DNA of 39,394 nt, from NCBI GenBank assembly GCA_020200315.1, contig JAIVIZ010000003.1, forward strand, positions 1-39,394, in the 5' to 3' direction. The position numbers and the translations under genes were made by a program. The notes beneath the pieces were generated by a model. That model did no database searches. It was not told the DNA's origin and worked only from the letters and a program-made list of their open reading frames with translations. How positions within the stretch are numbered: position 1 is the stretch's first letter; the number at the start of each line of letters is the position of its first letter. Below, in pieces: positions 7,469 to 35,631 of this stretch. The DNA is from Sphingomonadales bacterium. Lineage in GTDB: Bacteria > Pseudomonadota > Alphaproteobacteria > Sphingomonadales > Sphingomonadaceae.

Positions 7469-10279
7469 ATGGCCGACGCTCCCGACAAGATCGATTATAG
7501 AGACACCGTCTTCCTGCCGAAGACCGACTTTCCGATGAAGGCCGGCCTGCCGCAGAAGGAGCCGGCGATCCTCGCCAAATGGCAAGCGGCGGACCTCTAC
7601 CGACAGGTGCGCGCGGCGCGGGCCGGGCGCGAGAAGTTCATCCTTCACGATGGGCCGCCCTATGCCAACGGCGACATCCACATCGGCCATGCGCTCAACC
7701 ATATCCTAAAGGACATGGTGGTGCGCACGCAGACCCTGCTCGGCAAGGACGCGCCCTATGTGCCCGGCTGGGACTGCCACGGGCTGCCGATCGAGTGGAA
7801 AGTCGAGGAGCAATATCGCAAGAAGAAGCTCGACAAGGATCAGGTGCCGCTGCCCGAGTTCCGGGCGGAATGCCGCGCCTATGCGCAGCATTGGGTGGAT
7901 ACGCAGCGCGAGCAGTTGAAGCGGCTCGGAATCGGCGGACAGTGGGACAAGCCCTATCTGACGATGAATTATAAGGCCGAGGGCACCATCGTCGCCGAGT
8001 TGATGAAGTTCGCCGAAAGCGGCCAGCTCTATCGCGGCGCCAAGCCGGTGATGTGGTCCCCGGTCGAAAAGACCGCGCTGGCCGAGGCCGAGATCGAATA
8101 TGAGGATGTGACGAGCACCCAGATCGATGTGGCGTTCGAGATTGTTGAGAGTCCGATCCCAGAGTTGGTCGGCACTTATGCGGTGATCTGGACGACGACG
8201 CCGTGGACGATCCCGGTTAATCAAGCGATCGCCTACGGGCCGGACGTTGAGTACAAGCTCGTTGAAGAAACTGTGGTGCCTATGGGCCGTTCGTCGAAGC
8301 CAATGCGCTCCGGTCGGCGCTTCCTTATCGCAACTGAACTTGTCCATTCCTTCGGTGACCGCACCGGCTGGTTCGACCAGAATACGGACGATGCGGACTT
8401 CGGCTTCATGTCAGTCTGGGTTGGCAAGGGCTCCGACCTCGCCGGCACGGTCGCCCGCCACCCGATGCACCTTCTCGGCGGCTTCTTCGCTCGTCCGCGC
8501 CGGTTCCTCCCCGGCAACTTCGTCACGACCGATGCCGGCACCGGGCTTGTCCACATGGCGCCCGACCATGGCGAGGATGATTTCGCGCTGTGCAAGGCCA
8601 ACGGGATCGAGCCGGTGTTCGCGGTCGAGGGGGACGGGAAGTATCGCGAGGACTGGGGCTGGCTCGGCGGGCAGGGCTCGGTCATCAACACCAAGTTCAA
8701 TGCGCCCGACGGGCCGATCTGTTCGGATCTGCGCGATGCTGGGGCGCTACTCGCGGCGAGCGATTTCCGGCACAGTTACCCGCATTCATGGCGATCGAAA
8801 GCGCGGGTAATTTATCGCTGCACCCCGCAATGGTTCATCGGCATGGACGCGCCATTGGCCCCTCCCGCCGGAGCGGGAGGGGAAGAGCCACGTAGTGGCG
8901 AAGGGGAGGGCCTGCCCGGAGCCGACATGCCCTCCCCCGCTCGCCTTCGGCGAGTCGACCCCTCCCGCTCCGGCGGGAGGGGAAAGACGCTGCGCCAACT
9001 CGCCCTTACCGCCATCGCCGCGACTCGCTTCATCCCCAAAAAAGGCCGCAACCGGATCGGGTCGATGGTGGCGGACCGCCCCGACTGGGTCATCTCGCGG
9101 CAGCGGGCGTGGGGGGTACCAATCGCCCTGCTGGTTGAGCGCGGGTCGAACGCGCCGCTGGTGGATCCAATGGTCAACCAGCGGATCGTCGAGGCGGTTG
9201 CGGCGTTCGTGCTGGAGAGCGGACGCTGGCCCGATGAGCGCTGGCCGGCGGACCTCTATCTCGAAGGATCGGATCAGCATCGCGGCTGGTTCCAGTCGTC
9301 GCTGCTCGAGAGTTGCGGGACGCGCGGGCGCGCACCGTACGACGCGGTGCTGACGCACGGCTTCACTATGGACGCCAAGGGCATGAAAATGTCCAAGTCG
9401 CTCGGCAACACGATCAATCCGCTCGACCTGATGCGCGATTACGGCGCGGACATCCTGCGGCTGTGGGCACTGTCGGTCGACTTCACCGAGGATCATCGCA
9501 TCGGCAAGGAAATCCTCGCCGGGGTTGCAGATCAGTATCGCAAGCTGCGCAACACCTTCCGCTATCTGCTCGGCGCGCTCGACGGGTTCGAGGAAGCGGA
9601 GCGGGTGAGCGACGTGGCGGAGATGCCCGAGCTCGAGCGCTACATGCTGAGCCTGACGGCAGAGCTGGACGCAAAGCTAAGGCAGGCCGTCGCCGACTTC
9701 GACTTCAACAGCTACACGCGGCTGCTGGCCGATTTCTGCAACAACGACCTGTCCGCCTTCTACTTCGATATCCGCAAGGACAGCCTCTATTGCGACGCGC
9801 TGTCCGATCCGAAGCGGCGGGCGTACCGGACGGTGCTCGACACGCTGTTCCAGGCACTGGTGCGCTGGGCGGCGCCGGTGCTGGTGTTCACGGCGGAAGA
9901 AGTGTGGGGAACGCGGTATCCGGATGGGGGCAGCGTGCATCTGTTGGAGTGGCCGGAGTTGGGCAAGTGGTTCAACAGTGACCTCGACGTGATCTGGCAA
10001 TCCTATCGAGCAACCCGTTCTTACGTGAATGAAGCAATCGAACCATTTCGTGGCGAGAAGCTGATCCGATCCAGTCTGGAAGCTGAGGTGACCCTCCCGG
10101 TAATCAGCGATGCGGACTTCCTAGCCGAACTCTTTATCTCCTCGGCCGTACGTCAGGGCGAGGCATTCAAGATCGCAAAAACTCCGCTTAAAAAGTGCGG
10201 CCGCTGCTGGCGGCACCTTCCCGAAGTGACCGAGGACGGCGCCCTCTGCGCGCGATGCGAGGGGGTGGTTCATGGTTGA
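7469..10279 (+). CDS. ileS: Isoleucyl-tRNA synthetase with an in-frame repeat insertion
   Basis: 936 residues. The class I signature HIGH is at 71-74 and KMSKS at 640-644. The editing (CP1) domain lies between, including TTPWTIPVNQAIAYGP and VTTDAGTGLVHMAPDHGEDD. The C-terminal zinc finger has Cys at 910, 913, 927 and 930. It charges tRNA-Ile and clears misactivated valine. The odd feature is residues about 464-504: between GMDAPL and GKTLRQ, where homologues are nearly contiguous, sits a glycine- and proline-rich insert encoded by a palindromic repeat pair (8859-8982). Two stretches (about 8230-8410 and 9985-10200) are much less GC-rich than the rest. No Shine-Dalgarno is seen; a TAGAGC box lies 14 bases before ATG. 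lspA overlaps the stop. Confidence 0.97.
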   Translation: MADAPDKIDYRDTVFLPKTDFPMKAGLPQKEPAILAKWQAADLYRQVRAARAGREKFILHDGPPYANGDIHIGHALNHILKDMVVRTQTLLGKDAPYVPGWDCHGLPIEWKVEEQYRKKKLDKDQVPLPEFRAECRAYAQHWVDTQREQLKRLGIGGQWDKPYLTMNYKAEGTIVAELMKFAESGQLYRGAKPVMWSPVEKTALAEAEIEYEDVTSTQIDVAFEIVESPIPELVGTYAVIWTTTPWTIPVNQAIAYGPDVEYKLVEETVVPMGRSSKPMRSGRRFLIATELVHSFGDRTGWFDQNTDDADFGFMSVWVGKGSDLAGTVARHPMHLLGGFFARPRRFLPGNFVTTDAGTGLVHMAPDHGEDDFALCKANGIEPVFAVEGDGKYREDWGWLGGQGSVINTKFNAPDGPICSDLRDAGALLAASDFRHSYPHSWRSKARVIYRCTPQWFIGMDAPLAPPAGAGGEEPRSGEGEGLPGADMPSPARLRRVDPSRSGGRGKTLRQLALTAIAATRFIPKKGRNRIGSMVADRPDWVISRQRAWGVPIALLVERGSNAPLVDPMVNQRIVEAVAAFVLESGRWPDERWPADLYLEGSDQHRGWFQSSLLESCGTRGRAPYDAVLTHGFTMDAKGMKMSKSLGNTINPLDLMRDYGADILRLWALSVDFTEDHRIGKEILAGVADQYRKLRNTFRYLLGALDGFEEAERVSDVAEMPELERYMLSLTAELDAKLRQAVADFDFNSYTRLLADFCNNDLSAFYFDIRKDSLYCDALSDPKRRAYRTVLDTLFQALVRWAAPVLVFTAEEVWGTRYPDGGSVHLLEWPELGKWFNSDLDVIWQSYRATRSYVNEAIEPFRGEKLIRSSLEAEVTLPVISDADFLAELFISSAVRQGEAFKIAKTPLKKCGRCWRHLPEVTEDGALCARCEGVVHG
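8859..8982. repeat. Paired inverted REP-like (BIME-type) element inside ileS
   Basis: The left unit begins with stem CCCCTCCCGC-CGGA-GCGGGAGGGG (8859-8882). The right unit ends with CCCCTCCCGC-TCCG-GCGGGAGGGG (8959-8982). Inner parts also pair: GCCAC/GTGGC (8887-8899), GGGGAGGGC/GCCCTCCCC (8903-8937) and CTCGCC/GGCGAG (8940-8954). The right unit is an inverted copy of the left. The element keeps the ileS frame with no stop codon. Confidence 0.85.
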
Positions 10280-10889
10280 GCCTATCGATCCTCCCCGGAA
10301 CGGGGAGGTGGCAGCACGAAGTGCTGACGGAGGGGGCCCCCACCATGCTTCGCATGGTCCCCCTCCCCGTGCCGGGGAGGAATTACCGCAGCGCAACCGG
10401 GCAATCGCCTTCGCTATTGCGGGGCTGACCTTCCTTGCCGACCAGCTCGCCAAATGGTTCGTGACGGGTCCGGCCGGCCTGACGGTCGAGGGAGACCAGC
10501 GCTTCCTGCTGCCGATCTTCAGTCTCAGCCGCACGCACAACCACGGCATTTCGCTCGGCCTGTTCCGCGCCGACAGCGAGGCGGCGCGATGGGCGCTGGT
10601 GATCGTTACGGCGGCGATCGCGGTGTCGATGCTGGTGTGGATCCTGAAGGAGCCGCGGCACGGCGACCGGCTCGCGCTGGGGCTGGTGCTCGGCGGCGCT
10701 ATCGGCAATATCCTTGATCGCGTGCGGTTCGGTTACGTGGTCGACTATGCCGACCTGCACTTCGGGGCCTTCCGGCCCTTTTTGGTCTTCAATATCGCCG
10801 ATGCCGCGATTAGCATCGGCGTCGTGATCCTGCTGCTGCGCGCCTTCCTGTTGGGCGACGGAAGCTCTAAGGAGAATATCAATGCGTAA
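10272..10889 (+). CDS. lspA: Lipoprotein signal peptidase with repeat-derived N-terminus
   Basis: 205 residues, longer than the usual 150-170. The core is standard: four hydrophobic helices starting at AIAFAIAGLTFLADQLAKW (about 44-62), the catalytic aspartates in GNILDR (D149) and FNIADAA (D177), and the conserved THNHGISLG segment. It is the inner-membrane aspartyl protease that removes signal peptides of prolipoproteins, such as the BamF-like product encoded next. Residues about 5-38 (DPPRNGEVAARSADGG...) come from a palindromic repeat pair, placing an extra cytosolic tail before helix 1. ATG 10272 overlaps the ileS stop, suggesting coupling; the only clear later in-frame start before helix 1 is GTG 10308, itself inside the repeat. 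Confidence 0.93.
   Translation: MVEPIDPPRNGEVAARSADGGGPHHASHGPPPRAGEELPQRNRAIAFAIAGLTFLADQLAKWFVTGPAGLTVEGDQRFLLPIFSLSRTHNHGISLGLFRADSEAARWALVIVTAAIAVSMLVWILKEPRHGDRLALGLVLGGAIGNILDRVRFGYVVDYADLHFGAFRPFLVFNIADAAISIGVVILLLRAFLLGDGSSKENINA
10290..10380. repeat. Paired inverted REP-like element inside the lspA N-terminus
   Basis: The outer stems are CCTCCCCG-GAA-CGGGGAGG (10290-10308) and CCTCCCCG-TGC-CGGGGAGG (10362-10380). Between them are GCAC-GAA-GTGC (10314-10324), a central GGGGGCCCCC (10332-10341), and ACCATGC-TTC-GCATGGT (10342-10358). It is a head-to-head pair of a different sequence family from the ileS element. It is translated in the lspA frame without stops. Confidence 0.85.
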
Positions 10890-34147: not shown

Positions 34148-35557
34148 CTAGCGACCTGGTTGTGACGGCCGCCCGCCGCCCGGATTAGCGGTGTGATAGG
34201 GGTTTTTCGTCGCTCGCATTGTCAGCCGCAGCGGCACCGGCCCCAGCTTCAAGTCGCGGCGCATCGAGTTGATCAGGTAGCGGTGATAGCTGTCGGGCAG
34301 CTGGTCGACCCGGCTGCCGAAAATGACGAAGCTCGGCGGGCGCGACTTGACCTGCGTAATGTAGCGCAGCTTGATCCGCTTGCCGCCCGGCGCCGGCGGC
34401 GGGTTGGTGTCGATTGCACGTTCGAACCAGCGGTTGAGCTCGCCCGTGGTCACCCGCCGCGACCAGGCGTCGCGCAGCTCGAACGCAACCTTGATCAGCG
34501 TGTCGATGCCTTTTCCGGATTTCGCCGACACGGTGAGCAGGGTCACGCCCTTGAGCTGCGACAGCCCTTCCTCCAGCGCCGCCTTGATCCCGTTGAACAG
34601 CGCCGACGCGCCCTCGGCGACATCCCATTTGTTGAGCGCAATGATCAGCGCCCGGCCTTCCTCATGGACCGAATCCGCAATGCGCAGATCCTGCGCCTCA
34701 AGCCCGCGCGTGGCGTCGAGCAGCAGGACGACGACTTCGGACATGTCGATCGTCCGGCGCGTGTCCATCGCCGACAGTTTCTCGAGCTTGTCCTCGACCT
34801 TGGCGCGCTTGCGGAGGCCCGCGGTGTCGACCAGCCGGACGGGGCGCAATTGGCCCTCCTCGTCGCGCCACTGCCACTCGAGGCTGATCGAGTCGCGCGT
34901 GATCCCCGCCTCCGGGCCGGTGATCATCCGCTCCTCACCGAGCATGCGGTTGACGAGGGTCGATTTGCCCGCGTTGGGGCGACCGACGATCGCCAGTTTG
35001 AGCGGTCCGCCTTCTTCCTCCTCTCCCGCTGGCGGGAGAGGGCAGGGTGAGGGTTCTTCCTTTTCGACATGAGGGCGGAGCGCCTCGAACAGGTCGACGA
35101 GGCCCTCGCCATGCTCCGCGCTGATCGCCATCGGGTCGCCGAGCCCGAGCTTATAGGCTTCGAGGCGTCCGGCCTCGGCGCCGCGCCCCTCGGCCTTATT
35201 GGCGGCGACGATCACCGGCGTGTCCTGGCTGCGAAGCCAGCGGCCGATTTCCTCGTCCAGAGCGGTCAGTCCCTCGCGCGCGTCGATCAGGAATAGCGCC
35301 AAATCGGCATCGGCAACGGCGGCCTGGGTTTGCTGGCGCATCCGGCCCGGCAGGCTGGCCGGATCCTCATCCTCGAACCCGGCGGTGTCCATGATGGTGA
35401 ATTCGAGGCCCATCAGTTGCGCTTCGCCCTCGCGCCGGTCGCGGGTCACGCCGGGCCGGTCGTCGACCAGCGCCACGCGCTTGCCGACCAGCCGGTTGAA
35501 CAGGGTCGATTTGCCGACATTGGGCCGGCCGACGATCGCAACGATGGGGAGCGGCAT
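34148..35557 (-). CDS. der: Ribosome-assembly GTPase Der (EngA) with repeat-derived linker
   Basis: 469 residues from the Met of MPLPIVAIVGRPNVGKST; an upstream 23-codon extension is not expected. Two tandem GTPase domains have P-loops GRPNVGKS and GRPNAGKS, with DTAGFEDED and VDTAGLRKRA switch II regions and NKWD in the second. A C-terminal KH-like domain (RYITQVKSRPPSFVIFGS) follows. It acts in late 50S assembly. The linker (about residues 167-182, EEPSPCPLPPAGEEEEGG) is encoded by a palindromic repeat (35020-35041), in frame. Homologues have an acidic linker there. Confidence 0.95.
   Translation of the reverse strand: MPLPIVAIVGRPNVGKSTLFNRLVGKRVALVDDRPGVTRDRREGEAQLMGLEFTIMDTAGFEDEDPASLPGRMRQQTQAAVADADLALFLIDAREGLTALDEEIGRWLRSQDTPVIVAANKAEGRGAEAGRLEAYKLGLGDPMAISAEHGEGLVDLFEALRPHVEKEEPSPCPLPPAGEEEEGGPLKLAIVGRPNAGKSTLVNRMLGEERMITGPEAGITRDSISLEWQWRDEEGQLRPVRLVDTAGLRKRAKVEDKLEKLSAMDTRRTIDMSEVVVLLLDATRGLEAQDLRIADSVHEEGRALIIALNKWDVAEGASALFNGIKAALEEGLSQLKGVTLLTVSAKSGKGIDTLIKVAFELRDAWSRRVTTGELNRWFERAIDTNPPPAPGGKRIKLRYITQVKSRPPSFVIFGSRVDQLPDSYHRYLINSMRRDLKLGPVPLRLTMRATKNPYHTANPGGGRPSQPGR
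35020..35041. repeat. REP-like palindrome within the der linker
   Basis: CCTCTCCCGC-TG-GCGGGAGAGG, flanked on the right by GCAGGGTGAGGGTTC. The combination (CCCTCACCCTGCC next to an inverted CTCTCCCGC) matches a repeat type seen in many proteobacterial genomes, from memory. It is translated as part of Der without disturbing the frame. Confidence 0.75.
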
Positions 35558-35601
35558 GGGGGTGCAGTGAAGGGATCGGGCGCGGGGGTCAATGAACTCT
35601 C

Positions 35602-35623
35602 CTCCCCGCGAAATCGCGGGGAG
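35602..35623 (-). repeat. Palindrome between bamB and der
   Basis: A perfect 9-base-pair stem CTCCCCGCG-AAAT-CGCGGGGAG lies 8 bases after the bamB stop and 44 bases before the der start. No T-tract follows. It may be a single REP unit or a transcript-stabilising hairpin. Confidence 0.6.
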
Positions 35624-35631
35624 CATGGACG

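Follow-up and report, generated by a model that had tools for sequence, protein, structure and literature searches.

The gene encoding Der (EngA), the two-GTPase ribosome-assembly protein, carries in this sphingomonad a short palindrome that is read in frame as part of the linker between the two GTPase domains. Judged by its copies elsewhere, the palindrome is a dispersed repeat of the REP type. We consider it very probable that, as a whole, the best explanation is the entry of such a palindrome into the disordered linker of Der and its persistence there through tolerance.

The palindrome within der

The der gene occupies positions 34148..35626 of the window (the whole analyzed stretch of 39,394 nucleotides, contig 96 of a 2.18 Mb, 87% complete genome in 202 contigs) and is encoded by the complementary strand; its ORF matches TIGR03594 (GTPase_EngA) with 528.7 bits against a cut-off of 306.7. 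The palindrome CCTCTCCCGC-TG-GCGGGAGAGG (35020–35041) is composed, on the + strand, of CCTCTCCCGC (35020–35029), TG (35030–35031) and GCGGGAGAGG (35032–35041), and is followed by GGGTGAGGG (35045–35053); both the palindrome and its G-rich flank are present exactly as the first-pass annotation had described them. The right arm with the G-rich tail GGGAGAGGGCAGGGTGAGGG plus TTCTTCCTTTT (35034–35064, + strand) is common to other copies of the repeat. At der the palindrome is solo, with no doublet, and five of the six frames of 35017–35068 are open.

Read from the complementary strand, the element lies within the interdomain linker VEKEEPSPCPLPPAGEEEEGG (35006–35068), a predicted coil of which at least the middle is repeat-derived. 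The peptide EEPSPCPLPPAGEEEEGG is present in Der, and its codons (35006–35059) span slightly more than the previously indicated 35011–35058. An AlphaFold2 model based on 18 sequences (mean pLDDT 73.1, pTM 0.51) placed a coil at residues 188–208, with pLDDT below 50 at residues 189–204; the repeat-encoded segment is accordingly predicted to form a flexible, disordered joint, as had been proposed.

A second palindrome, CTCCCCGCGAAATCGCGGGGAG (35602–35623), is located between the stop codon of the upstream gene and the likely start of der, and adjoins the mechanically chosen ATG at 35626. The true start of der is likely to be Met24 (35557), the position at which the alignable Der sequences of relatives begin, these having been trimmed to about this point before alignment.

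Copies of the repeat in the genome and the family

Within the window, GGGAGAGGGCAGGGTGAGGG gave one match at up to 3 mismatches, against 0.01 expected, while the 16-base core gave one match at up to 2 mismatches, against 1.22 expected, which is not unusual. The 21-mer GCGGGAGAGGGCAGGGTGAGG was found three times in the genome at up to 3 mismatches (with 0, 1 and 3 mismatches), and its reversed control not at all. A copy of the der 22-mer with a single mismatch occurs at another place in the genome; its partner, 83 bases away, is inverted and more diverged. The two other copies of GCGGGAGAGGGCAGGGTGAGG lie in inverted orientation to each other on contig 55 (locus L002), directly after a stop codon, and the frame that comes next reads FVNIGERTNVTG and is presumably that of methionine synthase. 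This doublet (positions 1480–1640 of L002) separates two reading frames, which we take to resemble two parts of methionine synthase, and the repeat element contains the sole start codon found in the vicinity of the downstream frame. Inverted doublets of the der palindrome type occur in the genome at L002 and at L217.

The wider class CTCCCGN1-10CGGGAG is represented 50 times in the source genome versus 4 times in the reversed control, and this count is the highest among the 71 genomes of the genus (0–41 in the others); for CTCCCCGN1-10CGGGGAG the numbers are 55 versus 0. In the own-genome sequence examined, the der subtype CTCTCCCGC-2nt-GCGGGAGAG has seven copies including that of the window, and the insert in alaS is like this subtype, but has a longer loop.

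At up to 2 mismatches the 22-mer was detected in 16 of 119 genomes of the family (reversed control, 0). Four of these (G116, G118, G014 and G006) have no palindrome around the match, which leaves approximately 12 real copies, and the latter often have TCTTCTTC after the tail together with an inverted partner. Within the genus, a 24-base version of the der repeat was present in 6 genomes out of 71, which makes the exact subtype rare among near relatives. In view of the tail, the copies in the genome and the class count relative to the reversed control, we reject a chance palindrome, and the repeat origin suggested previously is borne out by the single-mismatch copy and the 50 versus 4 class members.

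The Der linker in relatives

We examined 139 Der loci, some of which represent one species in two collections; 124 were parsed and 15 were not. Among the 124 parsed linkers, PSPCP, PLPPA or the CTCCC..GGGAG palindrome is found in that of the window alone, although linker length varies. The observations named in the first-pass annotation as refuting the proposal were not made: the repeat exists elsewhere in the genome, and the peptide occurs in 1 of the 124, so that an ancestral linker peptide is unsupported. A loose spaced-arm pattern flagged nine other linkers among the 120 parsed in that comparison, but was judged too lax; of these 120, the window's linker was again the only one with the CTCCC..GGGAG palindrome.

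The Der linkers of relatives, of which the closest named ones belong to Sphingomonas, are variable in length and usually acidic. By the measure used across the 124 linkers the region comprises 36 residues here (median 33, range 29–51). Counted from VE to GG, the linker has 21 residues, as in G162, the nearest relative by Der (83% identity), while 17 is common elsewhere in the genus. The acidic residues on either side of the core (VE.EE and EEEEGG) are similar to those found in relatives' linkers and could be ancestral. An insertion, as originally claimed, is consistent with the repeat-derived nature of the DNA, but a net gain in length is less certain: the linker, some four residues above the genus norm, is no longer than that of G162. 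The equal length in G162 makes replacement within the linker as possible as net insertion; the repeat-derived DNA may equally have been added or have taken the place of older codons.

Repeats in other conserved genes

Palindromes were collected from 40 own-genome stretches around listed palindromes, the window and L002, which gave 64 clusters (not all of those in the genome). These were screened by codon usage for frames spanning the cluster, followed by family searches. Eleven of the 64, Der included, lie in frame inside recognized conserved proteins: IleS, Der, AlaS, the beta subunit of GlyS, SufC, a biotin carboxylase (by best structure, the propionyl-CoA carboxylase alpha subunit PccA), methylmalonyl-CoA mutase (Mcm), CarA, an acyltransferase E2, TruB and MurD. 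L210 and L220:5677-7254, with spanning frames that have no Pfam match, were left out of this number, as was L225, encoding a cyclopropane synthase in which the repeat precedes the recognized domain. At L213, L220 and L229 the opposite strand also had a frame that passed the codon screen, and the frame with the family match was taken.

For six of these proteins the structure alignments are interrupted at the repeat and resume after 0–14 chain residues; the structure positions flanking the break are 81/82 in SufC, 414/417 in IleS, 531/534 in Mcm, 378/385 in GlyS, 159/172 in TruB and 178/193 in CarA. The structure alignment of PccA is poor exactly at the repeat, the repeat of E2 separates the lipoyl domain from the E3-binding domain, and MurD shows a larger gap (58/84), its N-terminal alignment not being significant. 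From the alignment gaps, the sites in the ten other proteins would correspond to loops. The view that in-frame elements occupy tolerant positions can be extended to these further conserved genes, in which homologues show a gap or a linker. The bias in frame for which a check had been suggested was not found: palindromes are read in all three frames, which rules out a strict single-frame bias.

Within the window itself, an in-frame repeat doublet is located inside ileS (8843..8986, + strand, residues 459–506), where IleS chain 8c9e_A passes from 414 to 417. Another (10291..10379, + strand) is translated after the start codon and ahead of the body of LspA, provided that lspA starts at the ATG at 10272. 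Both inserts had been compared with that of der; they are indeed palindromic repeats, but not of the same kind, since they are doublets and belong to other subtypes.

The repeat-bearing truB sequence is part of a single open frame (L242:781-2298, − strand) that begins as thymidine kinase (approximately the first 128 positions) and continues as TruB, with the repeat in the TruB part. This frame may represent a fusion, a frame run-through or an assembly effect.

For 50 of the 64 clusters no spanning frame passed the codon screen, which is imperfect, the lspA doublet being among the 50. Ten of the 64 were flagged because the coding sequences flanking them differ in frame. All ten are gene junctions and not disrupted genes; in nine of them the upstream gene reaches its stop codon immediately ahead of the element, and in one (L217) within it. 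In the latter (L217, 1190–1296) the last residues of the upstream gene, together with its stop codon, come from a repeat doublet. The junction screen is a weak one (under the stricter cut, 7 of the 11 clusters identified as in frame were picked up), and a broken gene could escape it.

The IleS loop as a possible recurrent site

The IleS site was read in 43 of the 71 genomes of the genus, the source genome (G000) included. The sample consisted of the 25 best-scoring loci and 20 chosen ones, minus one duplicate and one unparsed locus, and is not random, several genomes having been chosen for an alignment break at the site. Repeat-like inserts of at least three sequence types were found in eight of the 43 (window 8843–8986 and L255, L258, L265, L274, L276, L288 and L293), an observation that goes beyond the first-pass annotation and for which we claim no priority. 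Four of these inserts (G000, G138, G182 and G159) contain a stem of at least 10 bp, versus none of 86 flanking control stretches of 130 bases with a stem exceeding 8. The inserts of G134, G125, G136 and G127 were judged repeat-like by reading, and SLGTNG...SSFVPSEVEG is common to G125 and G136.

For five of the eight inserts (G000, G134, G125, G127 and G138) copies were found elsewhere in the same genome, the G000 stretches searched having been fetched because they bear palindromes; for G182, G159 and G136 no copy was detected beyond the IleS site in the 64–100 kb sampled. Of five non-repeat inserts used as a control, one was not extracted and four had 0–1 matches each, two of the matches falling at the IleS site of G159 itself. 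The other 35 genomes have either a longer non-repeat insert (27) or a short loop (8) at this site. The longer insert (L254, L257, L259, L263 and others) usually shows an RW..EGG pattern.

On the IleS tree the eight carriers need six changes, at least four of which are forced by well-supported branches (bootstrap not settled). Shuffling of the carrier labels gave a mean of 5.6 changes and values as low in 421 of 500 trials, which indicates that the carriers are not clustered on the tree. The repeat of G138 contrasts with the bare QPIEGGTTLRQ of G139, G150 and G135 from the same clade; G129 is nearly bare, and G176 and G147 of this clade have a non-repeat insert. We lean towards the interpretation that the IleS loop between QWFxxMD and LRQ is a recurrent landing site, which several palindromic families (unrelated, to judge by their differing sequences) would have entered in frame and independently in different species, with the Der linker as a rarer site of the same process.

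Proposed origin and maintenance of the der element

According to the explanation we favor, the segment would be a single REP-type palindrome of approximately 34–45 bp, CCTCTCCCGC-NN-GCGGGAGAGGGYAGGGTGAGGGTTCTTC, corresponding to one half of an inverted doublet seen at other places in the genome and in the family. Transposition or copying would have brought it into the linker of Der, which is acidic and disordered, and tolerance by the linker could explain its persistence: the frame is kept, there is no stop codon in the frame used, and neither GTPase domain is touched. The peptide PSPCPLPPAG would then probably be only a neutral spacer. Tolerance rather than function is most likely the reason for the persistence of the element.

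The strongest competitor, which we nevertheless regard as unlikely, is that the element is kept for a role in DNA or RNA (an mRNA hairpin, a protein-binding site or attenuation within der), with the peptide as a by-product. The der-strand RNA can form a GC-rich hairpin (−20.4 kcal/mol over 42 nt, as a raw folding energy), and REPs are described in PMC3733652 as mostly intergenic and thought to act at the RNA level. However, the element is present in no other parsed Der linker, and different genes and element types are affected alike. It is less probable still that the linker, acidic and GC-rich as it is, drifted to its present sequence through chance or codon bias and that the palindrome is a coincidence: as in relatives, the core is bordered by acidic GAA/GAG codons, and the core itself is unexceptional in the window, but the rarity of the 20-mer tail, its sharing by copies elsewhere and the further in-frame palindromes in conserved genes argue against it. 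That the repeat joined two unrelated der fragments through an assembly or binning error is, despite the fragmented assembly, the least credible reading, since both halves of Der align through to the same 17 relatives and the upstream gene lies beside der in all eight relatives tested.

Relationship to known elements

The presence of repeats within ORFs is a phenomenon already in print, of which the present genome provides an unusually clear set of examples. As reported in PMC3733652, intragenic REPs of the GTAG/CGTC families are short dispersed palindromes, single or dimeric, some lying wholly inside conserved ORFs. Both tRNA synthetase genes and truB are affected in E. litoralis and S. alaskensis, the former also in X. 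oryzae and the latter also in S. maltophilia; sphingomonad relatives are thus among the hosts. The der element is likewise a short dispersed palindrome inside a conserved ORF, but within 35017–35068 it has neither the GTAG nor the CGTC that these superfamilies carry at one stem end. In the main text of PMC3733652 EngA and GTPase are absent and 'der' appears once; no paper on repeats in der/EngA was among the matches listed.

The classic case is that of the palindromic elements of Rickettsia (RPEs), described in PMC2229807 as selfish DNA of palindromic structure that is tolerated within the reading frame of conserved proteins. Both RPEs and the der element are palindromes read in frame within a conserved protein, but RPEs measure 105–146 bp and the der element, which is solo, approximately 40 bp (a comparison by description).

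We also considered mobilization by a transposase. A REPIN consists of two REPs in inverted orientation with a cognate RAYT (Y1_Tnp). The inverted doublets at L002 and L217 would fit such an arrangement, but at der the palindrome stands alone, and a search for the Y1 transposase (PF01797) found none in the source genome at its 87% completeness; a RAYT-driven REPIN is unsupported for the der element. PF01797 was found in 3 of the 71 genus genomes and in 5 of 14 control genomes. The source genome is the richest of the 71 in CTCCCGN1-10CGGGAG palindromes, yet no Y1 transposase was found in it. With its short dispersed palindrome and mostly intergenic clusters, as in REPs, and its in-frame position in a conserved protein, as in RPEs, the der element is best filed, on present sequence comparisons, as a putative REP-type, RPE-like protein-coding palindrome of unassigned family.

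Significance

Several of the 11 repeat-carrying proteins are essential in model bacteria. The genome analyzed is that of an alphaproteobacterium outside the Rickettsiales in which at least 11 conserved proteins carry repeat-encoded segments, which makes it possible to test the old question of whether palindromes of this protein-coding kind are junk that is tolerated or serve as raw material. At the IleS site one species bears a repeat where close relatives have a bare loop, a natural experiment on the positions at which a protein accepts insertions. If the IleS loop is indeed a recurrent landing site, the repeats would provide essential proteins with a lasting supply of new disordered segments.
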